Positions 3,345-55,819 of a stretch of DNA of 64,000 nt are shown in pieces. The notes beneath the pieces were generated by a model that worked only from the letters and a program-made list of their open reading frames with translations, was not told the origin of the DNA and ran no database searches. Position numbers and translations under genes: made by a program. The number at the start of each line of letters is the position of its first letter. Position 1 is the first letter of the stretch. The stretch covers positions 1-64,000 of the forward strand of contig LNFE01000265.1 of assembly GCA_001464575.1 (NCBI GenBank), in the 5' to 3' direction. Source of the stretch: Acidobacteria bacterium Ga0077553 (GTDB lineage Bacteria > Acidobacteriota > Terriglobia > Bryobacterales > Bryobacteraceae).

Positions 3345-3857
3345 CGCGAGGAGCATCCAGACCACCGTCACCAGGCCCACGCGGCGGTCCCATTTGGGCG
3401 GCAAGCCCTCGACGCGCCCCAGCTGTTGGACACCGAGGATTCCCATCATCGAAGCCGTTTCCTGCGCGGCTTGCATTTCTGATTCGAACTGGGCGGGGTT
3501 GCGCAGCCAGCGACCGTCACGATGGACGATGCCGGACTCCCAGTGGGAGACGTTGCCGGACTTGGGGCCTTGGTAGTTCCAGCGCCAATAGCCGCCGGCG
3601 ACGTGATCGCGCGGGATCCATTCGCTACCGGCTCCGGTGGGTAGGGGGCCGCGGCGGAGTTGAACGCCTTCGGGCCGGACAGTGAAGCGGGTGCGGTTGC
3701 AGAGGGCGACGAGGCCGAGATAGGTGAGCAGGGTGAAGGGCCCGACGGCGGGTCGCATCGTAGGGCCGCCGAGCCAGAGCAGGTACTGGGCGGCCACGCC
3801 GAGAGCGAAGAGGCCCAGCCCGGCCCAGAGGGGAACCCAGCGGCGGGAGCAGGTCAT
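3300..3857 (-). CDS. Hypothetical membrane-anchored protein
   Basis: A 185-residue protein with two N-terminal membrane segments (roughly residues 8-29 and 35-50), a soluble middle domain of about 100 residues containing TVRPEGVQLRRGPLPTG and GGYWRWNYQGPKSGNVSHWESG, and one C-terminal membrane helix (about 160-180). The middle resembles bacterial PH-like domains in its strand pattern, but I cannot assign it to a family. Its ATG is only 3 bp after the amidohydrolase stop, so it is likely the last gene of the operon that runs from 6756 down to 3300. Confidence 0.65.
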   Translation of the reverse strand: MTCSRRWVPLWAGLGLFALGVAAQYLLWLGGPTMRPAVGPFTLLTYLGLVALCNRTRFTVRPEGVQLRRGPLPTGAGSEWIPRDHVAGGYWRWNYQGPKSGNVSHWESGIVHRDGRWLRNPAQFESEMQAAQETASMMGILGVQQLGRVEGLPPKWDRRVGLVTVVWMLLALAAFASAIVLEYRR

Positions 3858-45309: not shown

Positions 45310-45356
45310 AATGGTCGGGGCGGCGGGATTCGAACTCGCGACCCCTTGCGCCCAAG
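45310..45356 (-). repeat. Left attachment site (displaced 3' end of tRNA-Pro)
   Basis: The 47 bases match 55740-55786 exactly and comprise the CCA, acceptor 3' strand, T-arm, variable loop and the 3' half of the anticodon stem of tRNA-Pro. The match ends abruptly at 45356, within the anticodon loop, where the usual integrase crossover lies. No 5' half of a tRNA adjoins it, so this copy is not functional. Confidence 0.92.
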
Positions 45357-45754
45357 TTAGCCTTTCGAGGTGAGATCCGTAGGGGCGGATCGAGATAAGC
45401 CGATATCCTTTCAACGGTTTAGGCTCTTTCGCTTCGCCCCCGCCTCTGTCTGTCGCTGTACGTCACAATCCGTCACCAGAACGGGGTTACGTCACAACCT
45501 CCGTCACAAAATGGACCGGCGACCTCGCTACGAACTCAGCAACCTGGACCGGTTCGTGGACTCGGCTAGAGCGTCGGGCCGGCGTTAGGTTCGCTGCGGG
45601 GCTAGACCGAAGCGCACATGATCGCGCGGAAGCGATTCCACAAGCGATGGAGGTTCCCCTGTTGAACGGTCACTTCCCAAGCAGGTCCGAACTGTCTTCG
45701 TTGGGTGGCAATCGATTGCCCCCGCCCTCCTAAGCCTGCTAGACTGCTGATCCA
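45357..45754. other. Left end of the element: no gene seen, integrase arm-like repeats
   Basis: Between the left repeat and the first element gene there are 398 bases without a supported gene. A frame of 72 codons at 45370 is Arg-rich and runs through the CGTCACAA repeats, and a frame at 45602-45871 on the minus strand overlaps the next gene; both were rejected. The stretch holds four CGTCACAA-like sites (listed separately) and presumably the promoter of the gene at 45755. Confidence 0.6.
45459..45510 (+). repeat. Cluster of CGTCACAA repeats, left end (possible integrase arm sites)
   Basis: Four copies of CGTCACAA or a one-base variant lie at about 45461, 45471 (CGTCACCA), 45490 and 45503. 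The segment ACGGGGTTACGTCACAA (45481-45497) recurs identically near the right end at 55666-55682. Clusters of short direct repeats flanking a tyrosine-recombinase core site are typical of arm-type integrase or excisionase binding sites. Confidence 0.6.
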
Positions 45755-46522
45755 ATGAGTGAGAGCCTGCCAGCAGAGATCCTCAAACACGCGTCGAAAG
45801 CAGCTATCGGACTGTTGCCCGCGGGTTCGATATTTGCCGAGCTTTTTGATGCGATCGTGGGCCGTCAGCAAAGCAGTGCGACGGAATTCATAACGCTATC
45901 GCTTGGAGACGCGTACAGCGCCGCATCAGCTGCCGGAGTGTCTCTAGATCAACTCGAGTCGAATCAAGTCTTCAGGAGAACTCTATTTGCGGCGATGCGG
46001 GCCGCTGTAGCTACTGGGTCGGAGGAGAAGAAGCGCCGACTCCGCAATGCGGTAGTCAATGCCGCTGTACTGCCCGACAATTGGGTCGTTGACGAAGCGA
46101 AGATGCATCGACTGTTGGAGGTATGTGACGAGGATCACATAGCGTTCCTCGCAAAGCTTTCGACGGCTACCAAGTACCCGTCGTTGAATTCAGGCGCGCC
46201 TCAGATCTTTCAGCGGATCATCCCGACCCCTGCTACGCCACCTGCAGAAAGTGCGGCAGCCCGGGATCTTGACTTCCGAGCGCTTTCCGCGTTTAACCTC
46301 CTATTCAACGAAGGACTGATCTCGCGAGGAGGACTTCCGCCTCCAACTAGTCCTTCGTCTAGCGGCTTTTCAGTGGCGCCGCATTCATGGGATCATGAAC
46401 TCGAGGCGGAACTCTCGCGATACGTCGGTCATGCGGGAGGCGCTACTCGTGAGTGCAGGCTCACGAGGTTTGGCATGGGCTTTCTGAGTTTCGTTTCGCG
46501 GACACCCCTGGATGCCGAGTGA
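45755..46522 (+). CDS. Hypothetical protein, element cargo (possible Abi-alpha/DUF4393-like)
   Basis: A 255-residue soluble protein. The N-terminal half is helical (ILKHASKAAIGLLPAGSIFAELFDAIVG; FRRTLFAAMRAAVATGSEEKKRRLRNAVVNAAVLP; KMHRLLEVCDEDHIAFLAKLS), a pattern in which a region of the form KxxRLRNAVxN is followed by HIxFLxKL. The C-terminus ends LTRFGMGFLSFV, like the closing winged-helix-type segment of Abi-alpha/DUF4393-like proteins. I am not sure of that family link. The gene is the first cargo gene at the left end of the element, where defence or exclusion genes are common. No leader or membrane segment is seen. Confidence 0.7.
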   Translation: MSESLPAEILKHASKAAIGLLPAGSIFAELFDAIVGRQQSSATEFITLSLGDAYSAASAAGVSLDQLESNQVFRRTLFAAMRAAVATGSEEKKRRLRNAVVNAAVLPDNWVVDEAKMHRLLEVCDEDHIAFLAKLSTATKYPSLNSGAPQIFQRIIPTPATPPAESAAARDLDFRALSAFNLLFNEGLISRGGLPPPTSPSSSGFSVAPHSWDHELEAELSRYVGHAGGATRECRLTRFGMGFLSFVSRTPLDAE

Positions 46523-46833
46523 CCCGGCTGGGCCGCTTATGCGGCGCCAGGTCCTTCCGCCGAGCCGGTTTCCCCACCCCCGCTTCCGAAGAATCGGCGG
46601 CGCCTGCCGACGCACGTCCAAGAAAAGGCACCCCCGGCCCGAAGTCGGCTCCACCCCCCATTCGTCCTTGAGAAAATTCTGAAAAATGCCCAGCCAAATT
46701 GGGCCACCGCTGGAGAGCGGCCGATAAATGGCGACTCTCGACATGGGCGGGCTAGCTCTCGCTCGATCGTCGATGGCCCCGCAACTACCAGTGACGGCGG
46801 AGTCGAGTCAGCGCAGCAACACACCCGTACTCG
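46523..46833. other. 311-bp stretch without a supported gene in the element
   Basis: Frames of 70-119 codons on both strands overlap one another and none has a family pattern or a good start. The sequence is mostly GC-rich at its left end, with an AT-richer patch around 46670-46700 (GAAAATTCTGAAAAATGCCC). It lies between two convergent genes, the plus-strand cargo gene and the minus-strand exported pair, so it may hold their terminators, but no clear hairpin with a T-run is visible. Confidence 0.4.
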
Positions 46834-47241
46834 TCAGCCATGCTGCCAGCAGTAACTCGATCCTGCGGCGGCGTTTCTTTTGCACTGAGATCCCGCCTTC
46901 GTAGTCGCCTGACATCTGCCCGAGACGCTCTCCCTGGCGGGTCTGGGCGCGACGGCCCCAGGCATCACGCGCGTCGTCGACGGAGGTCGTTGCAGGGTTG
47001 GCTGTGACCGGGGCGCGGGTACTAATGCGGGTGCTAGGGCGGTCGTATCGGCCGGCACCATCGGAGATGCCTCTTTTGACGCCATCAGCTTTGCGACCAA
47101 CTGAGTCAGGAGGTCGACCTGGTTCGAGAGCCGCTTGACCTCGGATCGAAGCTGCGCGACCTCCGCGGAAGCATCTTGAGGCTGGGCGACGGTTGCTGTT
47201 ATTGAGGCAATGAGCAGAATGACGGCGATTCTGAAGTTCAT
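46834..47241 (-). CDS. Exported coiled-coil protein with C-terminal Cys/His zinc-binding-like motif (DUF5763-like)
   Basis: A 135-residue protein. Residues 1-19 are a signal peptide (FRIAVILLIASITATVAQ). Residues about 25-58 form a coiled coil (EVAQLRSEVKRLSNQVDLLTQLVAKLM), followed by a Pro/Thr-rich linker. The last 27 residues, GRCQATTKAGSQCKRNAAAG and SSYCWQH, match the C-x(7)-C-x(10)-C-x(2)-H spacing of the DUF5763-type motif found in many mobile-element and exported proteins. Zinc binding is likely but its role is unknown. It starts 36 bp after the stop of the next exported gene and is probably co-transcribed with it. Confidence 0.78.
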   Translation of the reverse strand: MNFRIAVILLIASITATVAQPQDASAEVAQLRSEVKRLSNQVDLLTQLVAKLMASKEASPMVPADTTALAPALVPAPRSQPTLQRPPSTTRVMPGAVAPRPARESVSGRCQATTKAGSQCKRNAAAGSSYCWQHG

Positions 47242-47277
47242 GGAGGCGAGGCTCCTTGGGCTGGGTTGGTGGTTTGC

Positions 47278-48222
47278 CTATTGAATTGGGAGCGGAAACT
47301 CGAATGAGACTGTCCCGACTATCAATTGAAAAATGACTTCTGAGGTGCCCTTCTTGGGCGGTTCGAGATAAAGCCTGCCCGTCACCGTCTGGCCCGGTCG
47401 CACGGTGTTTTCGAGCAGGATCTCGTTGGTAAGAGCAGCGATCTTTCTGGAGGCCTGCTCTCTGATCGCCTGCGCGTTTTCCAGAATCCGCCTTCGCGCC
47501 TCGTAGTCGGGAACTCTCGTTCTAGTGGTGCCAGAGTATTGACCACTCGCATAGACCGTGCCATTCGGCCCCGTCGCGCTCCCGTTAACGGCACCGTTCT
47601 CACTGCTCTCGATGGTCGTAGTTGCAGAGTTCGCTCCGGCTTCAGCGAATGCCGTTCTCCACCTCGCGCCCCGGCTGATTTTACGGGCGATGTCGTCGCC
47701 AGTGACCCCTTTCAGAATCTCGGCCGCTCCTCCAGCGCCAATGACTGATACGTTTGCAGGCGATACGAGAATCGATGTCGGCGAGTCGGCGGGACATGAG
47801 ATTAGGATGTCGATGGCGAGGTACTTATCAATCCGCAGCGCGGTCGCGACCAACGTCAGCCTTCCTTTTACTTCAATCGACCGAAAGCGGCGCCCATTCT
47901 CGGACCACTGATCGGCGTAGCTTGCATCGGCAGACCATGGAAACGGCGACAACCCTTTCAGGTTTCGCCGCGCAGCGACTTTGTCCTCCGCCGCCTTCAA
48001 TATCTTCACGGCCTCGCGCCACGGCATCGACTTGTAGTGCTGAAACTTCGCAAGGAGAATCTCATCTCGAGCGATAAACGGAAGCCCGTTGAACAGATCG
48101 CTATCTAAGAGCTCGTCGTAAGTGAGTTTTGCCAGCACCTTCGGCGGATCCAGTGCATGCAGAGTCGGCTGGCTCAGCCATACGGTCATGATCGCGATTG
48201 CGGTCGCCTTAAGCATTGGCAT
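47278..48222 (-). CDS. Exported hypothetical protein, element cargo
   Basis: A 314-residue protein with a signal peptide (about 1-23, AIAIMTVWLSQPTLHA). The mature part has an N-terminal helical section (DELLDSDLFNGLPFIARDEILLAKFQHYKSMPWREAVKILKAAEDKV), a middle with a Ser/Thr/Gly-rich repeat-like stretch (SSENGAVNGSATGPNGTVYASGQYSG), and a C-terminal beta region (VRPGQTVTGRLYLEPPKKGTSEVIFQLIVGTVSFEFPLPI). I recognise no family; the end resembles the pili-assembly or fibronectin-like beta sandwiches that accept ligands. It is upstream of, and likely co-transcribed with, the coiled-coil exported protein. Two exported proteins together as cargo suggest action at the cell surface. Confidence 0.72.
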   Translation of the reverse strand: MPMLKATAIAIMTVWLSQPTLHALDPPKVLAKLTYDELLDSDLFNGLPFIARDEILLAKFQHYKSMPWREAVKILKAAEDKVAARRNLKGLSPFPWSADASYADQWSENGRRFRSIEVKGRLTLVATALRIDKYLAIDILISCPADSPTSILVSPANVSVIGAGGAAEILKGVTGDDIARKISRGARWRTAFAEAGANSATTTIESSENGAVNGSATGPNGTVYASGQYSGTTRTRVPDYEARRRILENAQAIREQASRKIAALTNEILLENTVRPGQTVTGRLYLEPPKKGTSEVIFQLIVGTVSFEFPLPIQ

Positions 48223-48237
48223 CTCGTAAGACCGTGA

Positions 48238-48495
48238 CTATATCACTCTCTCTGAATAGGCGTAGGGCCCCGGCGTCCGGCCTATGTTACTCACGTTCTG
48301 CTCGTAGGTCGTCCCGTTGCGGGTGACGGTGCGGGTGGGGCTATCTATCTTCGGAACTTCCGAAGATGTCTTCTCCCGCCATGCCCGAACGGTTTTCTCA
48401 TCAACGCCCGACGTGCTTCGCGATCTGATTATCACTCAGCCCAGCGCACCGCGGATGGTCCAGCGCACGGCAACGCAGAATCTACGTTCCTGAGT
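48238..48495 (-). pseudogene. Remnant of a ParB/Spo0J-like protein (HTH region), frameshifted
   Basis: Reading the minus strand from about 48495, one frame gives ALDHPRCAGLSDNQIAKHVG; it then needs a one-base shift, after which a second frame gives VDEKTVRAWREKTSSEVPKIDSPTRTV. The joined text is the usual helix-turn-helix and linker of ParB-like proteins on plasmids and islands (SDNxIAxHVGVxxxTVxxxRRE, then a kinked tail DGKTYxxxNIGR). The upstream part is cut by a TAG a few codons earlier, so no complete gene remains. The extra G in a GGG run is the simplest explanation of the shift. It shows that the element or an ancestor carried a partition or transcription factor gene. Confidence 0.6.
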
Positions 48496-48539
48496 CGGTC
48501 CGCGGGAGCCAAGCCGACGCCTGGCCCCCCACCCTGCGC

Positions 48540-48785
48540 CTACGTCCGCCGCGCATCCATCACGCGGTCGAACACTTCTTTCGGCACTCGCACCGTCACC
48601 TTTCGCTTCCCGAACCCGGTCGCGATCAGGCCGGGCTCGCCTTTGAAGATCTTGTACGCGGTGCTGTAGCTCATATGCAGGCGAGACGCGATCGTCTTGA
48701 TCGAAGCCGGCCACTCCGCGTCGTAGGTGATCGGCTTCGGCGGCTCCTGACGCTTGGCGATCAGGTCGCGGATGCGGCGGCGCAT
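48540..48785 (-). CDS. Small HTH DNA-binding protein
   Basis: An 81-residue protein. The centre is a helix-turn-helix (IKTIASRLHMSYSTAYKIFKGEPGLIATGFGKRKVTVRVP), with an N-terminal basic helix. It is of the type of excisionases and island regulators whose helix-turn-helix is followed by a wing-like arginine or lysine stretch. Its start lies 25 bases inside the end of the upstream gene 48761-49198 on the same strand, so the two may be coupled. Confidence 0.62.
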   Translation of the reverse strand: MRRRIRDLIAKRQEPPKPITYDAEWPASIKTIASRLHMSYSTAYKIFKGEPGLIATGFGKRKVTVRVPKEVFDRVMDARRT

Positions 48786-49198
48786 GTTTCCCTCCGGTCT
48801 TGGGTCAGTTCTACAGTCAGTTCGCCGCCCTCTTCAGATCGAGATACGTGGCCCGCACCGAAGCCAAGCGTCTGCAGGTAAGCGGCCGTTAGCATGCCGT
48901 CCTGTATGGAGTCTCCGCCGTGAAGTTCGCGGCATAGGCGAATGGCTTGGGCGACGAGCAACAAGTCAGTGCCGCAGCAATTCCCCATCGCGTAATCGAA
49001 CTCCCGGCGAACGATTGCGTCGACGGCTTTTTGTGACAGGTTCACGCCGAGTTGGACGGCGGGATGCTGCAGGCCTCCGTTCGCAACGCGGAAGTCCGTC
49101 AAGTCCGGCCAGGTCTCGGGCATCTGCCTTGCCGCATCGGCGATAAAGGCGACGGGCTGAAGGCGCGGCTCCGCGCTAGACTCTTCTTTAGGTCTCAT
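48761..49198 (-). CDS. Hypothetical protein, element gene
   Basis: A 145-residue soluble protein with no family recognised. Its middle is helical (NLSQKAVDAIVRREFDYAMGNCCGTDLLLVAQAIRLCRELHGGDS). Two adjacent Cys are seen (Cys73-74 region). It overlaps the small HTH gene at its end. An imperfect palindrome lies about 35 bp upstream (49233-49256), suggesting a controlled promoter. The frame has no homology I can name; the length, the start ATG and the lack of competing frames support it. Confidence 0.55.
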   Translation of the reverse strand: MRPKEESSAEPRLQPVAFIADAARQMPETWPDLTDFRVANGGLQHPAVQLGVNLSQKAVDAIVRREFDYAMGNCCGTDLLLVAQAIRLCRELHGGDSIQDGMLTAAYLQTLGFGAGHVSRSEEGGELTVELTQDRRETCAAASAT

Positions 49199-49232
49199 GA
49201 AACGATTACTCCGTTTTTTGGGATTTAGGAAT

Positions 49233-49256
49233 GCGTAAGGGGTGCAACCCTTGCGC
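49233..49256. promoter_or_regulatory. Palindromic site upstream of the gene at 48761-49198
   Basis: GCGTAAGGG and CCCTTGCGC are near-perfect arms (one T/C difference) separated by six bases. The site lies 35 bp upstream of the minus-strand gene starting at 49198 and 70 bp beyond the stop at 49327. It is not followed by a T-run in either direction, so an operator is more likely than a terminator. Confidence 0.4.
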
Positions 49257-49326
49257 GTTCCGTTACTGGAGAATAACAGCGATTCGCCACAGAATCAATG
49301 ATTTTCCGTAATGGCGGATCTCATGG

Positions 49327-49554
49327 TTAATCGGCGCCGCCGCCACGCCGGCCAGCTTTCTTGCCGGTGAGGGGTTCCGGGCTCCAGTCGGCGAGGCGGC
49401 CGAACCGCGCGAGGCTCAATGCGTTCCGTGCGGCGATGAGTGCCGCGGTTGCCTCGAGCATTTGAGCGTCGGCGCTCGACATCATGCTCTCTATTTGCTC
49501 AGGCGTGAAGGTCCGGCGGACGTCGCGAAGAGCGAATTCTTTGCGGGATGGCAT
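49327..49554 (-). CDS. Small hypothetical protein
   Basis: A 75-residue protein: MPSRKEFALRDVRRTF, then helices EQIESMMSSADAQMLEATAALIAARNALSLARF, then a Gly/Lys/Arg-rich tail. No family recognised. Its promoter region contains one of the repeated AGCT-like operator sites (49566-49583), shared with the opposite gene at 49705, which supports it as a real regulated gene. The C-terminal basic tail would allow DNA or RNA binding, but nothing proves it. Confidence 0.5.
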   Translation of the reverse strand: MPSRKEFALRDVRRTFTPEQIESMMSSADAQMLEATAALIAARNALSLARFGRLADWSPEPLTGKKAGRRGGGAD

Positions 49555-49565
49555 GCCCCATAATT

Positions 49566-49583
49566 GGCTTAACCGCTCAAGTT
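49566..49583 (-). promoter_or_regulatory. Operator-like site O1 (AGCTNNAGCGGNNAAGCT type)
   Basis: The minus strand reads AACTTGAGCGGTTAAGCC, identical over 15 bases (49567-49581) to the sense-strand site at 54429-54443. The site lies 12 bp upstream of the 75-residue gene and about 120 bp before the gene starting at 49705, so it could act on both. A common regulator within the element is inferred. Confidence 0.6.
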
Positions 49584-49704
49584 CGTCAAGGGGAATTGTT
49601 ATGATCGATGAAGGCCGCCTAGGTCGCGCCTCATGAACGCGACTGAAGGCCGAGAGCCCTACTCGGGGGCGGCCACTTCAGCGTAGGGATTCGTCGAGGG
49701 AACG

Positions 49705-50511
49705 ATGGTCGAAGCACGCGAAGACAGTCCCGCGGGATTGGACGCCAAGCAGCATCAGTTAATGGCTGACCTTGAAGTGGTCTTCCGCGAAGGGGTGGAG
49801 CCGCTTCTCGTTGCAGTAAGATCAGGAGACTGCGTTCGTATCACCGATACGCTCGAGGCTTTTGCATTGCAAGCCATGGACGCCGGGGCAGCAGCGTTTT
49901 GGATGTTATTGCGATTCGACGATGGGGCAGAAAAGTTCCGGGAAGCGTTACGGATTTTCATCGACTGCCGTCTTATGCCGGCCGTTCGGGAGGCGGGCCA
50001 GTCTCCAATCGAGTTTGACCGCAGGCTGTATGCTCGGACTCGCGGAGTCATCATTGCGATTGGCGCCAGGGAGGAGACCTGGAACGCAAGGGCGCGACGC
50101 GAATGGGCCAGGCGGGCAGATGCAACCGCCTTAGTAAAAACGGAAGGAGTGGAGTTGGGCTCCGAGGCGACGGTGGCGACCATAGGGGAGGCTCCGGCTG
50201 GCCGAGGCAGTTCACTGAGCGCCGAGTCATGTTCGGCAACTGCCACCAAAGCCACGGTCTCAATGATCGGTGAACCTTTGAAAGTGGAGCAGCTTCTCGA
50301 TCGCGGCGATCGCCGGGGAGCTTACGAGGAGTGGAAGCGGGTCCAGGATGAGCGGGATTCCGGCCGGAAGATTGGTGATCTGATCAAGAAGTCGAAACGC
50401 GATGGCAGGGAGAAAGTCTATCGCGCCGAGTTCGATAAATGGCTTGCCGGAGCCCTCCGCGAAGAGTCCGTAATGACCAAGCGGATTCGTGATTTCCTGC
50501 TCTCAGAGTAG
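49705..50511 (+). CDS. Hypothetical protein with C-terminal helical domain, element gene
   Basis: A 268-residue soluble protein. The N-terminal half is a helical domain (HQLMADLEVVFREGVEPLLVAVRSGD; ALQAMDAGAAAFWMLLRFDDGAEKFREALRIFIDCRLMPAVREAGQSP), then an Ala/Glu/Ser-rich linker and a C-terminal basic helical segment (DRGDRRGAYEEWKRVQDERDSGRKIGDLIKKSKRDGREKVYRAEFDKWLAGALR). The segments KIGDLIKKSKRDGREKVYRAEFDKWL resemble helix-turn-helix proteins that read DNA, but I cannot name a family. It precedes the three 21-bp iterons by 14 bp. It may be a DNA-binding partner of the replication genes. Confidence 0.65.
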   Translation: MVEAREDSPAGLDAKQHQLMADLEVVFREGVEPLLVAVRSGDCVRITDTLEAFALQAMDAGAAAFWMLLRFDDGAEKFREALRIFIDCRLMPAVREAGQSPIEFDRRLYARTRGVIIAIGAREETWNARARREWARRADATALVKTEGVELGSEATVATIGEAPAGRGSSLSAESCSATATKATVSMIGEPLKVEQLLDRGDRRGAYEEWKRVQDERDSGRKIGDLIKKSKRDGREKVYRAEFDKWLAGALREESVMTKRIRDFLLSE

Positions 50512-50525
50512 CGACCGCAATCGCA

Positions 50526-50588
50526 TTTTCCTGACTCGAAACCTGACTTTCCTGACTCGAAACCTGACTTTCCTCACTTGAAACCTGA
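50526..50588 (+). repeat. Three tandem 21-bp iterons upstream of the excisionase-like gene
   Basis: Three adjacent units (50526-50546, 50547-50567 and 50568-50588) each contain TTTCCTGACTCGAAACCTGA or a close variant (the third has TCACTTG). The first two differ at one base only. A 21-bp period places the units on one face of the helix. They end 53 bp before the start of the excisionase-like gene and precede the replication genes, so a control site or a second origin element is possible. Confidence 0.75.
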
Positions 50589-50641
50589 CTTGTTAGGAGC
50601 CCCATACTGCCCTTGTCCCTACTTGGGACCGAGGCAAAACG

Positions 50642-50872
50642 ATGAATGTAGAAATGAATCCGGTGCCATCGCTTCACCGGCCAGAGTTCCGGAATGAACA
50701 CCAGGTAGCCGACTACCTCAACCTCAACGTGTCGACCATTCGGAAGTGGCGGCAAACGGGGAAGGGCCCCAGAGCATTGAAGTTCGGCGCCGCAGTCCGC
50801 TACCGACAGGCCGACGTTGACGAATGGCTCGCCACCCGGCCCGAGATCGGCGGCGAGGGAGCGGCCGCCTAA
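50642..50872 (+). CDS. Excisionase-like helix-turn-helix protein
   Basis: A 76-residue protein with the MerR/excisionase-type helix-turn-helix: RNEHQVADYLNLNVSTIRKWRQTGKGPRALKFGAAVRYRQADVDEWL. In such proteins the conserved GPxxxKxGxxVRYRxxDvxxWl wing binds DNA. It could act as excisionase (Xis) for the integrase or as a regulator (AlpA-like) of the replication genes. Its stop overlaps the start of the next gene by one base (TAATG), so it begins a unit with the next two genes. Confidence 0.85.
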   Translation: MNVEMNPVPSLHRPEFRNEHQVADYLNLNVSTIRKWRQTGKGPRALKFGAAVRYRQADVDEWLATRPEIGGEGAAA

Positions 50873-51645
50873 TGCCGACTCGAAACGGAAGGGCCACCGT
50901 GCCAAGCGGCCCCACTGCACCCACAGACTCCAACGTATCTCGAGATTTGACCCGCCCGCAGCGCTTCGCCTCCGCGGCCGACTTCCTCGCTTCCCTTCCT
51001 CCCCACGACGGGCAACCGCGGCTCGCCACGGCGGCTACGACCCATCTCCGAGCGATTCCTTCGCGATTCAGTCACCGCCCGGAGAGCGTCGACGAACTGC
51101 TGCGGGACTTCATGCTCTTCGCCGTCGGTCGAGCGCTCGCCCCCGGCTGTCCGAGCGGAGGTTTGCTTATCCTGGAGGGGCCAACCGGCCGGCTGCCGAT
51201 GTTGATGTTGTGGGACCCAGGTTCGCTGGCGGGGTGTCGCCACCCCTTAACGGGAATTGGTTACTGGTGGAGGGACAGCGCGGAGGGTCCGCTCATGGCG
51301 TTTGGGTGCGGCCCGAACAATGCCTGGCTCGTGGGGCTCACTGATCTAGGGCAGGAAGTCAATACCGTGCCGATGTCATCATCCGCTGCGGCCTGGGGCT
51401 TTCTCAATCGAGCCCGCTGCGCGAAGTATGGTCCTGTGGGTTACTGCCTCTACTCGACGGCCGCTGCCATCCGGCGTGGCTGGACTGCTGAGATATTGAA
51501 ACTCGATTGCGTGGCGTCGATATCCGTTCCGGATCCGGATCTGCGCCTGATCCGCGCGGACCGCGATCAGCTATGGGCCGAAGCTCTCCGCCTTTATTCG
51601 GAGGGGCGCCGCTGGCGGGAGTTTCCGGAGGACATTCATGGGTAA
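50872..51645 (+). CDS. Hypothetical replication-operon protein with VapE-like C-terminal tail
   Basis: A 257-residue protein starting in a TAATG overlap with the excisionase-like gene. The central part (LLRDFMLFAVGRALAPGC, LILEGPTGRLPMLMLWDPG, GIGYWWRDSAEGPLMAFGCGPNNAWLVGLTDLG) has no family I recognise. The last 45 residues read LIRADRDQLWAEALRLYSEGRRWREFPED, the same kind of segment that in VapE-type helicases follows the FWP motif; the primase-helicase downstream has RIAADREQIWAEAVALFKDGAKWWPDNPK. So part of a VapE-like C-terminus is present twice. It overlaps the next gene by 8 bases. Confidence 0.7.
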   Translation: MPTRNGRATVPSGPTAPTDSNVSRDLTRPQRFASAADFLASLPPHDGQPRLATAATTHLRAIPSRFSHRPESVDELLRDFMLFAVGRALAPGCPSGGLLILEGPTGRLPMLMLWDPGSLAGCRHPLTGIGYWWRDSAEGPLMAFGCGPNNAWLVGLTDLGQEVNTVPMSSSAAAWGFLNRARCAKYGPVGYCLYSTAAAIRRGWTAEILKLDCVASISVPDPDLRLIRADRDQLWAEALRLYSEGRRWREFPEDIHG

Positions 51646-53635
51646 CTACCTCTCCGGCGCCGCGGTTCTATCGGGGTTCGATGAACTGATCGAAAAGCCT
51701 CTGACGGCAGAAGACTACCGCAGCTTGGCCGCCCGCTGGCTGCGTCCCGAGGATGCGGCCGCCGCTGGCCTGTATCGCGTGGACGGGCCGAGCGGGGGCT
51801 ACTTGATGGGTTCGCCCCGCAAGAGCTTCCCTGGCGTCTGTATCCCGTATCGCGACCCGGTTACCGGGGACGTGGTGCTGCAGCGCATCCGCGTGGACGA
51901 TGCCGCCCGGCCCGCCCAGATCGGGCTTGACGGCAAGCGGAAGGCGCCACCGAAGTATCAGGGGGCCATCGCATCGCGAAACCATGGATACTTCCCGCGT
52001 GGAGTGACAGCGGACCACATGGCCGCCGTCGAGATCCCCGTCGTCATCACCGAAGGCGAGTTCAAGACGTTGGCCCTATGGCGCCTCTCCAACCACGAGG
52101 CCGCCGCACCGCGGTTTCTACCCGTCGGTCTCTCGGGGGTTTGGAACTGGAAAGGCCGCATTGGCCGCCGGACGGCTTCTGACGGGACGCGAGAGGACGA
52201 GCACGGCGTCATTCCGGACCTTCGCCGGATCGGGTGGGAAGGCCGCCGAGTCGTGATCGCTTTCGATGCTGACCTGGCCACAAAGCCCCAGGTCGAGGCC
52301 GCCCGCCGAGCCCTATCTCGAGAGCTCCGCAACGCGGGGGCTATCGTCGCTGTACTCGAATGGCCGGCAGCCGAAGGCAAGGGTATCGACGACCGCCTCG
52401 TCACTGTGGGCCCGGAGAAGGTTCTGGCCGATTTCAACGCTCTGGACTTCGACCGGACGACCGGCTGGAAGGCGAAGCTACGCCGGACGGACAAAGACAA
52501 GCCGAAGGCGTTCCTGCTCAATGTGGACATCGCCCTGCGCAACGCGCCCGAATGGGAAGGCGTGTTCGTGTTCAACGAGATCCGGCAACGCGTCTGCGTA
52601 GTCGAGCCACCGCCCATCGGTGGGCCGGTTCCCCGCGATTGGACCGATGCCGACGACACCGCCACGGCGATCTGGATGCAGACCCAGGGTATCGACGTGG
52701 GCCGCGATACAGTTGGGCCCGTGGTGCAAGCGCTGGCGAGAGAGAACAGCGTCAACCCGCTCGCGGATTGGCTCAACTCGCTGCGCTGGGACGGAACGCC
52801 ACGAGTCGATGGCTGGCTGGTGGAATACTTCGGCGTCGAGCCATCGACCTACGCCGCCGCCGTCGGCCGCATGTGGCTGATAAGCTGCGTCGCCCGCGTC
52901 CTGAAGGCAGGACCGGTACAGGCTGACTTCATGTTGGTGCTCGAAGGCGATCAGGGGATCGGCAAGTCAACCGCGCTGCGGGCCTTGGCGGGTGATGAGT
53001 ACTTTTCCGATGGAAGCATCGACCTGCACAACAAAGACGCCCAGCTTCACGCGCTGCGCTACTGGATCCTCGAATGGGGCGAGCTCGACGCGCTGCGGAA
53101 GGCCGAGGTCACCAGTATCAAGGCGTTCATATCGCGCCAGACCGAGAGCTTCCGGCGCCCGTATGGGCATCACATCGAGGAGGTTCCCCGCCGATGCGTA
53201 TTCGCCGGAACAACCAACCGCGGCGACTACCTGAAGGACGAAACAGGAAATAGAAGATTCTGGCCGGTTCGATGCACCCGCGCCGATGCTGCCCGGATCG
53301 CTGCCGACCGAGAGCAAATCTGGGCCGAAGCCGTGGCGCTGTTCAAAGACGGGGCGAAGTGGTGGCCGGACAATCCGAAGATCCTGGAGGCCATTGAAGC
53401 CGAGCAAGCCGAGCGCATGGAGGCTGACCCGTGGCTGCCAGATGTTGAGACATTCGTCGATCAAAAGCGGGAGGTCAGGGCGGAGGCAGTCCTCGCCCAC
53501 CTGGGCATTGATCTTCCCCGGCGTGGCCAACCTGAGCGCAATCGGGTGGGCCGTTGCCTTCGGGCTCTCGGATTCAAGCCGACCTACACCCGAGAGATGG
53601 GCCGATGCTACGTGAGGCCGGAAACATGCTTGTAG
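51638..53635 (+). CDS. Primase-helicase of the Toprim/VapE (P4 alpha-like) type
   Basis: A 665-residue protein. Residues about 1-90 form an N-terminal domain (LTAEDYRSLAARWLRPEDAAAAGLYRVDGPSGGY). A Toprim-like (DUF3854-type) primase region follows, with the Glu of VVITEGEFKTLALW at 140 and the Asp pair of VVIAFDADLA near 210-212. The C-terminal helicase is of the VapE family, with Walker A GDQGIGKST at 437-445, ILEWGEL as Walker B, FAGTTNRGDYLKDETGNRRFWPV near 525-540, and DREQIWAEAVALF. Such proteins start and unwind replication of satellites, P4-like elements and plasmids. The AT-rich repeat block at its 3' end is the likely target. Confidence 0.92.
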   Translation: MGNYLSGAAVLSGFDELIEKPLTAEDYRSLAARWLRPEDAAAAGLYRVDGPSGGYLMGSPRKSFPGVCIPYRDPVTGDVVLQRIRVDDAARPAQIGLDGKRKAPPKYQGAIASRNHGYFPRGVTADHMAAVEIPVVITEGEFKTLALWRLSNHEAAAPRFLPVGLSGVWNWKGRIGRRTASDGTREDEHGVIPDLRRIGWEGRRVVIAFDADLATKPQVEAARRALSRELRNAGAIVAVLEWPAAEGKGIDDRLVTVGPEKVLADFNALDFDRTTGWKAKLRRTDKDKPKAFLLNVDIALRNAPEWEGVFVFNEIRQRVCVVEPPPIGGPVPRDWTDADDTATAIWMQTQGIDVGRDTVGPVVQALARENSVNPLADWLNSLRWDGTPRVDGWLVEYFGVEPSTYAAAVGRMWLISCVARVLKAGPVQADFMLVLEGDQGIGKSTALRALAGDEYFSDGSIDLHNKDAQLHALRYWILEWGELDALRKAEVTSIKAFISRQTESFRRPYGHHIEEVPRRCVFAGTTNRGDYLKDETGNRRFWPVRCTRADAARIAADREQIWAEAVALFKDGAKWWPDNPKILEAIEAEQAERMEADPWLPDVETFVDQKREVRAEAVLAHLGIDLPRRGQPERNRVGRCLRALGFKPTYTREMGRCYVRPETCL

Positions 53636-53829
53636 CGCGTTTCAACCGTTTTGTTGCGCGTTGTAGCGCGTTTTGTAGCGCGTTTAAGTCCAATCTCATC
53701 AACGCTGTAGCGCGTGTTGCGGGTTTATTTCCCAGAAAGATATATGTGTTTGAGCAATATGAAATAGGGAATACATATACGCGGGGGGGTTATATAGGAA
53801 AAGACGCGCTACACGCGCAACGCGCTACA
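53630..53829. other. Putative replication origin: iterons on both sides of an AT-rich block
   Basis: Left of the block the sense-strand iteron TTGTAGCGCGTTT occurs at 53630, 53661 and 53673 (12-bp period for the last two), with variants at about 53651 (TTGTTGCGCGTT) and 53706 (TGTAGCGCGTG). Right of it the reverse-complement ACGCGCTACA recurs at 53804 and 53820, with a related ACGCGCAA between. The middle, about 53718-53800, is AT-rich (AAAGATATATG, GAATACATATAC, TTATATAGG) in a GC-rich element. This layout, directly after the primase-helicase stop, matches origins of P4-like elements and iteron plasmids. Confidence 0.75.
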
Positions 53830-53944
53830 TCGCCCTATGACCCATCGGCGGATCTCAAGAGTCGATCAGCTTCCGACATTGCGGCCGGAGATCCCGCCAG
53901 GTACCAGCAGCCTCAACGCCCCATCCGGGCGCTTTCAAGGACAC

Positions 53945-53948
53945 GGAG
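53945..53948 (+). promoter_or_regulatory. Ribosome binding site deciding the start of the second HTH gene
   Basis: GGAG lies five bases before the ATG at 53954, whereas no such site is present before the earlier ATG at 53837, so the shorter 79-residue reading is preferred. Confidence 0.55.
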
Positions 53949-53953
53949 TGATC

Positions 53954-54193
53954 ATGCGCGAAGACAATGAAAGGCCCGTCCGCATCCGAGACGCCGCATT
54001 CCTGGCCGGCTTGAATCCGGATACCGTCCGTCGCTGGGTTCGACAGGGACGAATCCGGGCATGGGGCCGATGGGGCTACACGTCAGTACTCGTCTCTGAT
54101 CTACTGCCACCGATCGAGCGCAAGCCATCTCAAGGGGTGACCGAAAAGACCGTGCGAAAGGTCACGCCCGCGCCGGGCTCCGGGAAACCCTAA
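53954..54193 (+). CDS. Small HTH protein, excisionase-like
   Basis: A 79-residue protein with the helix-turn-helix IRDAAFLAGLNPDTVRRWVRQGRIRAWGRWGYTSVLVSDLLP, the layout of excisionases and MerR-like island regulators. I chose the start at 53954, with GGAG five bases upstream, over the ATG at 53837, which would add a leader rich in Ser, Pro and Arg. A role as excisionase or origin-bound regulator is likely; two HTH proteins of this type are present in the element. Confidence 0.75.
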   Translation: MREDNERPVRIRDAAFLAGLNPDTVRRWVRQGRIRAWGRWGYTSVLVSDLLPPIERKPSQGVTEKTVRKVTPAPGSGKP

Positions 54194-54375
54194 GGCTGCC
54201 CTTCCTTGCGCTTCTTCGCTGCGGCACTCCGCACCGCGGCTGAGGCGGCTGCAGCCTTCTTCGCCCGCTCTGACCGCTGCTCCGGGGTCATCGCCTCTGC
54301 GGCTCGCTTACCGCCGATCTTTCCGCCCCTTCGGCCCATCTCTCGCATGACCTGCTCGATGACATCCTTCCGCAT
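54190..54375 (-). CDS. Small KGG/RGG-type basic protein
   Basis: A 61-residue protein rich in Arg, Lys, Ala and Gly: MREMGRRGGKIGGKRAAEAMTPEQRSERAKKAAAASAAVRSAAAKKRKE. The pattern GGKIGGKRAxxMTPEQRSExAKKAA is that of small KGG-type proteins common in acidobacterial and other genomes, thought to bind nucleic acid or to be stress-related. The first ATG at 54373-54375 has little RBS support; an internal Met 9 or 12 residues later is possible. Its stop overlaps the convergent HTH gene by 4 bases. Confidence 0.6.
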   Translation of the reverse strand: MRKDVIEQVMREMGRRGGKIGGKRAAEAMTPEQRSERAKKAAAASAAVRSAAAKKRKEGQP

Positions 54376-54382
54376 CCCTCTA

Positions 54383-54400
54383 AGCTAAAGCGGAAAAGCT
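54383..54400 (+). promoter_or_regulatory. Operator-like site O2 (AGCTNNAGCGGNNAAGCT type)
   Basis: The bases AGCTAAAGCGGAAAAGCT fit the same spaced pattern as O3 and O1: AGCT, two bases, AGCGG, two bases, AAGCT. It is 8 bp upstream of the KGG-type gene on the minus strand, and so could repress it; O3 lies 26 bp further on. Confidence 0.5.
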
Positions 54401-54426
54401 GCCGATGCAACTGCGCTCAGCTTGAC

Positions 54427-54444
54427 AGCTTGAGCGGTTAAGCT
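54427..54444 (+). promoter_or_regulatory. Operator-like site O3 (AGCTNNAGCGGNNAAGCT type)
   Basis: AGCTTGAGCGGTTAAGCT is an imperfect palindrome between the divergent KGG-type gene and the integrase, 46 bp before the integrase ATG. Fifteen of its bases (54429-54443) recur in inverted form at 49567-49581. It follows a possible -35-like TTGACA at 54422 (CTTGACAG), and TAATAAT with TACT lies downstream at 54445-54453, so it may overlap the integrase promoter. Confidence 0.6.
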
Positions 54445-54476
54445 AATAATACTTGTGTGCGACCCCTTATCGCACC

Positions 54477-54484
54477 GAAGGAGA
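54477..54484 (+). promoter_or_regulatory. Ribosome binding site deciding the integrase start
   Basis: GAAGGAGA lies five bases before the ATG at 54490. It makes this start much better than the ATG at 54457, which would add eleven residues without an RBS. Confidence 0.7.
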
Positions 54485-54489
54485 TTCGA

Positions 54490-55665
54490 ATGATTAGGAA
54501 AAGAGGCCTGCATTGGCACATGGACGTTTCCATCAACGGGGTTCGCTATCGCGAGCCGTTGCGCACCACCGACAAGCGTGAGGCGAAAGAGGCGGAGAAG
54601 CGGCGCGTTTCCGAGATCCTCGCCGGCAAGGGTAGTTCGCTCGCTGGCCGGGAGTTTGCCCGCCTTCCCTTCACAACGGCGCTGGAACAATTGATGGAGG
54701 AACGAAAGCCACACGTCGCACCCAAGACCCAGGAAGTCGACAAGAACCGCTCGAAGCCGCTCTGCCGGTACTTCGGTGACCGTCCGCTCAATCGGATCAC
54801 AGCCGCCGACATCTCGACGTTCCAGCGCAAGCGGTTGGCCGGCGAAGGCTTCGACGCAGCCGGGGGCGCCCGCACGATCAACATGGAGGTCACCCTTCTC
54901 CGAACTTTAATGCAGAAAGCAAAACTCTGGGGACGCTTGCGGGAAGACGTCAAGGCCCTGCCGGAGAGCTCGGCGCCGATCGGCCGCGCTCTCACGGCGG
55001 AGGAACTCCGGCATCTCTTCGCCGTCTCAGCCCAAAGCGAACGCTGGTTGGTCGTGCGTTGCGCCATGACGATTGCGTTGGCCACCGCCGGCCGCGGCGT
55101 CGAGTTGAAGGGTCTGCGCTGGCAGCATGTGGACCTGTTCTCTCGGATGCTCCGCTTTGAGCGCTCCAAGACGGCTGGCGGCCTCCGGACGATCCCGCTG
55201 ACGGTAGACGCCATGCACGCTCTGACGGCGCTCCGTGCCCGCGCTGAGGCCTTTGGGGCGGTGGAGGACGAGCACTATATCTTCGCGGCCTGCGAGAACC
55301 TGCAGTTCGACCCGACGACGCCAATGAAGGGCTGGAGAACCGCTTGGCGTTCGCTGGTGGAGGAAGCAGCAACCCTCGCGGGCGATGCGGCCGAACGGGC
55401 CGGGGAGAACCGGGCGACCGCTGAGAAGCCCTTCCGTGGGCTCCGCTTTCACGACCTGCGTCACTGCTCAGTAACGATGCTGGCCGAAGCCGGCGTCTCG
55501 GATGCAACGCTCATGAGCATCAGCGGCCACCTCAGCCGGAAAATGCTGGAGCACTACAGCCACGTCCGCATCCAGGCGAAGCGGGAAGCGGTCACCCACC
55601 TGCCTTCCGGGCTGTTCCCGACGAGGTCGGAGAAGGAAGCCGAGCCGACTGGAAAAGCCCAATGA
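54490..55665 (+). CDS. Tyrosine integrase of the element
   Basis: A 391-residue tyrosine recombinase. The N-terminal arm-binding part (MIRKRGLHWHMDVSINGVRYREPLRTTDKREAKEAE) is followed by the core-binding domain and the catalytic domain. Catalytic residues are visible: Arg202 in GRGVELKGLRW, Lys227 in SKTAGG, His321 and Arg324 in HDLRH, His347 in SGHLS and the nucleophile Tyr356 in EHYSHV. The gene ends 75 bp from the right attachment repeat, the usual layout for tRNA-site integrases. It carries out insertion into, and with an excisionase removal from, tRNA-Pro. Confidence 0.94.
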   Translation: MIRKRGLHWHMDVSINGVRYREPLRTTDKREAKEAEKRRVSEILAGKGSSLAGREFARLPFTTALEQLMEERKPHVAPKTQEVDKNRSKPLCRYFGDRPLNRITAADISTFQRKRLAGEGFDAAGGARTINMEVTLLRTLMQKAKLWGRLREDVKALPESSAPIGRALTAEELRHLFAVSAQSERWLVVRCAMTIALATAGRGVELKGLRWQHVDLFSRMLRFERSKTAGGLRTIPLTVDAMHALTALRARAEAFGAVEDEHYIFAACENLQFDPTTPMKGWRTAWRSLVEEAATLAGDAAERAGENRATAEKPFRGLRFHDLRHCSVTMLAEAGVSDATLMSISGHLSRKMLEHYSHVRIQAKREAVTHLPSGLFPTRSEKEAEPTGKAQ

Positions 55666-55696
55666 AACGGGGTTACGTCACAATCCACGTCACAAT
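55666..55696 (+). repeat. CGTCACAA repeats, right end (possible integrase arm sites)
   Basis: Two CGTCACAA copies (55676 and 55688) lie between the integrase stop and the right attachment repeat. ACGGGGTTACGTCACAA (55666-55682) is identical to the left-end segment 45481-45497. They have the same orientation at both ends of the element. They are a candidate for integrase arm binding. Confidence 0.6.
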
Positions 55697-55741
55697 CGCT
55701 GATCGGCGAGAGCGGCATCAGCCGCAACTCGTTGATTGCAA

Positions 55742-55819
<78 letters not shown>

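Follow-up and report, generated by a model that had tools for sequence, protein, structure and literature searches.

In SaPIs, the origin lies just past the rep gene and is the target of the C-terminal domain of Rep (PMC7581432), and PICI origins have been described as always having an AT-rich region with a set of iterons on either side, a layout stated to occur in 'no other known bacterial replicon' (PMC6092414). The SaPI/Gram-positive PICI origin was described by Ubeda et al. 2007, whose account is taken here as relayed in PMC7581432 and PMC6092414, and the rep-ori of EcCICFT073 was tested by plasmid replication (PMC6092414).

The 64,000-nucleotide stretch of Acidobacteria bacterium Ga0077553 analysed here (contig LNFE01000265.1; hereafter, the window) contains an integrative element of about 10.4 kb, bounded by 47-bp perfect direct repeats of part of a tRNA-Pro gene (45310-55739 plus the second att copy). 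Sequence comparisons make it very probable that positions 53631-53829 are the replication origin of this element, whose own Rep would bind the facing iterons located there via a C-terminal winged helix. Judged by its layout, the origin is of the SaPI/PICI type, a kind already known. The features of the element outside the proposed replicon are as follows.

45310 to 45356, plus strand: attL, 47 bp that match part of tRNA-Pro perfectly
50642 to 50872, plus strand: small HTH protein (HTH_17, 2.6e-11; weak AlpA match)
53837 to 54193: HTH ORF, MerR/excisionase-like (E about 1e-4), starting within 10 bp of the last iteron
54484 to 55665, plus strand: tyrosine integrase (PF00589), adjoining the tRNA-Pro att site
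55740 to 55786, plus strand: attR, within the intact tRNA-Pro gene (55742-55818, minus strand)

Among the ten element proteins scanned against PHROGs, no convincing virion or packaging match was obtained, and no packaging or phage-interference genes were recognised. Short direct repeats of the TTACGTCACAA type lie beside both att sites (45459-45497 and 55665-55690) and are plausible integrase arm sites. A good sigma-70-like promoter (TTGACA, 17, AATAAT) is located at 54422-54450, just before the integrase gene.

The gene preceding the proposed origin encodes an intact primase-helicase, of which no second copy was found in the same genome.

51638 to 53635, plus strand: rep, intact, encoding an initiator of 665 aa that combines primase and helicase parts (DUF3854 at the N-terminus, then a VapE-like AAA+ helicase and, at the C-terminus, a winged helix)
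53432 to 53632, plus strand: Rep residues 599-665, winged helix predicted from the structure model, putative iteron reader that tracks iteron sequence

Rep matches PF12965 (7.6e-19) and the VapE-like family PF05272 (1.1e-76; 257.5 bits, above the gathering threshold of 25), and its DUF3854 part is presumably Toprim-like. Sequence and fold comparisons both give as the closest solved structure 7pds, an entry with the title 'PriRep1 with dsDNA' that we take to be SaPI1 Rep, in agreement with this title and the molecule name. Chain 7pds_A matches Rep at 1.3e-43 alone and at 1.4e-81 with a family profile, and the predicted Rep fold matches 7pds with an E value of 4e-28. In the structure model the N-terminal 120 residues are poorly predicted, whereas pLDDT is about 90 over residues 600-660, where the predicted winged helix is composed of three helices (600-607, 615-621 and 631-643) and two strands (647-651 and 655-659).

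Directly upstream of rep, an ORF of 273 aa (50824-51645, plus strand) encodes a degenerate VapE-like paralog (PF05272, 2.2e-8) that lacks the Walker A lysine (EGPTGRLPM, compared to EGDQGIGKST) and that, in a viral scan, matched solely VapE-like helicases at about 25-30% identity. This ORF could have arisen by decay of a rep copy, or its product could act as an inhibitory subunit.

The array at the 3' end of rep is composed of nine copies of TGTWGCGCGT, six forward and three reverse, two of the nine carrying one mismatch, around a core of about 80 bp.

53631 to 53640, plus strand: iteron L1, TGTAGCGCGT, includes the rep stop codon
53652 to 53661, plus strand: iteron L2, TGTTGCGCGT
53662 to 53671, plus strand: iteron L3, TGTAGCGCGT
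53674 to 53683, plus strand: iteron L4, TGTAGCGCGT
53706 to 53715, plus strand: iteron L5 (inner), TGTAGCGCGT
53715 to 53724, plus strand: iteron L6 (inner), TGTTGCGGGT, one mismatch, at 9-bp pitch from L5; the matching position is occupied in relative L013
53725 to 53803: AT-rich core, putative melting region, includes the least stable 70 bp of the window (GC about 39%)
53783 to 53798, plus strand: core block GGGGGGGTTATATAGG, the sole long core block kept in L013, also present in the VapE origin of contig L022
53804 to 53813, minus strand: iteron R1, TGTAGCGCGT
53813 to 53822, minus strand: iteron R2, CGTTGCGCGT, one mismatch
53820 to 53829, minus strand: iteron R3, TGTAGCGCGT

The preliminary description had reported facing iterons on the two sides of an AT-rich block, directly after the stop codon of the primase-helicase gene. 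Their arrangement, direct on the left and reverse on the right, is borne out, but there are more copies than it listed; likewise, the position at the 3' end of rep holds, but the array begins at the stop codon itself (TAG, 53633-53635), which lies inside the first iteron. Exact copies of TTGTAGCGCGTTT occur at 53630-53642, 53661-53673 and 53673-53685, and exact reverse copies of ACGCGCTACA at 53804-53813 and 53820-53829. None of 2000 dinucleotide shuffles of the 320-bp region equalled the array itself, which scores 6 facing copies at k = 7, 8 and 10; the best shuffles gave 5, 3 and 2 facing copies, respectively.

The stability minimum of the whole 64-kb window lies exactly between the two arrays. 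By nearest-neighbour energy, the least stable 70 bp are 53734-53803, at -84.2 kcal/mol, compared to -90.1 for the next minimum and to an element mean of -106.9 (sd 5.5); GC content is 38.8% over 53700-53799, against about 60-65% in the surroundings. This result bears on the possibility that the iterons serve chiefly in copy control or incompatibility, in the manner of P4 crr or of handcuffing iterons, with replication starting elsewhere. A double role is common for iterons, and in P4 ori and crr are separate sites; on the other hand, the least stable DNA of the window lies in the same block as the repeats, and the 11-mer iteron TGTAGCGCGTT has four exact copies in the 6.45-Mb genome, all four within these 200 bp, with no further exact copy found in the element or the genome. 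We therefore regard a site devoted mainly to copy control as unlikely and favour an origin.

Close relatives of Rep are scarce: a single-sequence scan found none in IMG/VR, and genome contigs yielded one, the Acidobacteria MAG locus L013, the sole relative found above 60% Rep identity (76%), so that the close comparison consists of one pair. L013 carries six left and three right iterons around and past its own rep stop codon, with left spacings identical to those of the window (21, 10, 12, 32 and 9) and right spacings of 10 and 7, compared to 9 and 7 in the window. Every L013 copy reads GTAAYG where the window has GTWGCG, the L013 iteron being CGTAACGC, and the core has drifted except for GGGGGGGTTATATAGG. 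The suggested check of whether relatives conserve the iterons and not the intervening bases comes out in favour of an origin in this pair, and more strongly than was asked for, in that positions are kept, letters change together in all copies and the core, bar that one block, is not conserved. The C-terminal part of Rep is only 46% identical between the two proteins, compared to 77-81% for the other domains. An array whose positions and number are kept while its letters are rewritten in concert is what would be expected if it were read by a changing protein domain.

Separately, the core block GGGGGGGTTATATAGG adjoins facing iterons at 2707-2721 of L022, a phage-like contig whose PrimPol-VapE protein shares only 24% identity with the window Rep. 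The motif GGGGGGTTATATAGG alone was rejected as an origin marker, since among the fetched stretches of seven IMG/VR contigs carrying it only one, L022, has a VapE gene. Enrichment of TATAGG in cores (4/15, compared to 0/300 shuffles) was not relied on, because the motif was picked post hoc and L022 had been fetched by this very motif.

In VapE loci drawn from genomes, IMG/VR, and phage and plasmid records, the 330 bp that follow the VapE gene were surveyed for 7-mers present as facing copies, with no sequence prescribed, a strict threshold of at least 5 copies and one member taken per 60%-identity Rep cluster. At this threshold, facing copies were found downstream in 17 of 27 clusters, compared to 0 of 27 inside the gene and 0 of 2700 shuffles. 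A further set, obtained with a different query, gave at least 5 copies in 6 of 25 clusters and in none of the in-gene, upstream and far controls, and at least 4 copies in 15 of 25 clusters, compared to 1-3 in the same controls. The clusters missed by the strict exact-repeat test (10/27 and 19/25) may reflect degenerate iterons, shifted positions or real absence; a clear facing array was not found in L003, L004, L007, L089, L138, L154 and others, and L002 escaped the windowed test, since its array precedes the called stop. The layout is stereotyped, with inner iterons at a pitch of about 9 bp, a core of mostly about 70-120 bp and, often, outer copies. Facing arrays were present in the complete records of Marinobacter phage PS3 (score 5) and plasmids pKNA06 (6) and pGO128 (5); Pseudomonas phage vB_Pae_U5, with a score of 4, falls under the strict threshold. 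In L006, a locus from another genome of this phylum, facing GGTGAACG iterons (GGTGAAC), which we presume to be close to the P4 iteron, come after a DUF3854/D5 helicase (about 3613-3720, locus reversed).

The survey also bears on two other explanations of the repeats. One is that they are operators through which a transcription regulator, such as the HTH protein at 53837-54193, would control its own gene and that of the integrase; operators can consist of repeats, and no more than 10 bp separate the last iteron from the start of this MerR/excisionase-like ORF. However, a simple scan detected no sigma-70-like promoter in the block, the single one being that at 54422-54450, before the integrase. 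Moreover, the array is kept in L013 although the ORFs that follow differ from those of the window, and across phages and plasmids it goes with rep and not with any particular downstream gene, these genes being variable; nor would an operator need an unstable core between facing arrays. We consider an operator role very unlikely. A second explanation, that the repeats are integration/excision sites of the Int/Xis arm type, is suggested by the position of the block, 1.9 kb from attR and adjoining a Xis-like ORF, but the TTACGTCACAA-type direct repeats beside both att sites fit arm sites better, and the same layout is found after rep both in plasmids and in phages where the integrase lies elsewhere. 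This is the least credible of the alternatives, and we attach next to no weight to it.

Which part of Rep would read the iterons was addressed by comparing iteron similarity with domain identity across the 67 loci with clear arrays. In partial Mantel tests, which control only partly for shared ancestry, iteron similarity correlated with identity of the C-terminal domain once helicase identity was accounted for (partial r 0.41, 0/2000 permutations), whereas it showed no correlation with helicase identity once the C-terminus was accounted for (-0.10). Recognition-helix class agrees with iteron class in nearly every close relative: among the 27 close Reps for which both classes were called, every Rep with a G..LK or G.FFK helix has CCAC iterons (13/13) and every one with S..LK has CCAAC (8/8), and GAFFR occurs with CCAAC (5) or CCTAC (1). 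In the IMG/VR contigs L159 and L197, the Reps are 95-98% identical up to residue 625 (helicase 96%, residues 600-625 98%) but only 53% identical in helix 3 plus wing; the iterons read GTCCCAC in L159 and GTCCAAC in L197, with much of the core alike. These comparisons make a strong case, though not proof, that the C-terminal winged helix of Rep reads the iterons.

Taken together, these data support the earlier suggestion that the block is a self-recognised origin, on the basis of the L013 array, the recurrence of such arrays after VapE helicases, the tracking of iteron sequence by the Rep C-terminus and the similar plan of the Sfi21 origin. By analogy with the SaPI/PICI work, Rep, encoded immediately upstream, would bind the facing iterons via its C-terminal winged helix, such that two Rep assemblies, one on the left and one on the right array, would stand opposite one another with the unstable core between them. 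These assemblies would then melt the core and load themselves as helicases for replication, with priming carried out either by the N-terminal primase-like part of Rep or by a host primase.

More broadly, facing iterons around an unstable core probably form a type of origin that is common among VapE-family helicases, be it in phages, plasmids or satellites, and in which each Rep would read its own iteron through recognition helix and wing, the helix predicting the iteron. If so, the origins of many VapE replicons become predictable from sequence. Within the window, the analysis very probably identifies the replicon of the present element. The dozens of Rep-iteron pairs, the natural near-identical Reps with switched iterons and the fixed geometry constitute a test set for origin choice by self-loading initiator helicases, in which L159 and L197 are a ready domain-swap pair. 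No paper joining VapE helicases and iterons was found in the literature searched, which left most subscription papers outside, and priority is not established.

Among known systems, the alpha protein of satellite phage P4 resembles the window Rep in being a primase-helicase that itself binds iterons, but differs in helicase family. The annotated origin of Streptococcus phage Sfi21 (NC_000872, 34487-34784) lies, like that of the window, directly after a helicase gene, here of the D5 type, and has paired facing TTAGTTAC repeats at 8-bp pitch around an AT core, but has fewer iterons and a helicase that matches Pox_D5/DUF5906 and not VapE. In the SCCmec Cch2 origin (PMC7581432), the iterons lie just past the helicase gene and are bound by the C-terminal domain of the helicase, as predicted for the window; however, these are three direct AAGTG iterons, and Cch2 belongs to the SaPI5 Rep type and not to VapE. 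Gram-negative PICIs such as EcCICFT073 (PMC6092414) share with the window an origin placed after pri-rep, with one iteron set on each side of an AT-rich region, as well as an AlpA-like HTH gene and an integrase, but their iterons differ, and the window element, with no known helper phage, is at most a candidate PICI. The SaPI/Gram-positive PICI origin also lies immediately 3' of rep, with iteron sets around an AT-rich region and a self-loading Rep helicase recognising the origin by its C-terminal domain, as would the window Rep, a homolog of 7pds PriRep1. It differs in iteron sequence, and in that the packaging and phage-interference genes of those islands are not recognised in the window element, whose origin is followed by an HTH ORF and int and has its nearest relative locus in an Acidobacteria MAG. 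Given the phage and plasmid cases with facing iterons, we argue that the restriction of this layout to PICIs (PMC6092414) is too narrow on sequence grounds. What is new with respect to these systems is the present member and its iteron sequence, the presence of this layout in phages and plasmids as well, and the covariation of recognition helix and iteron.
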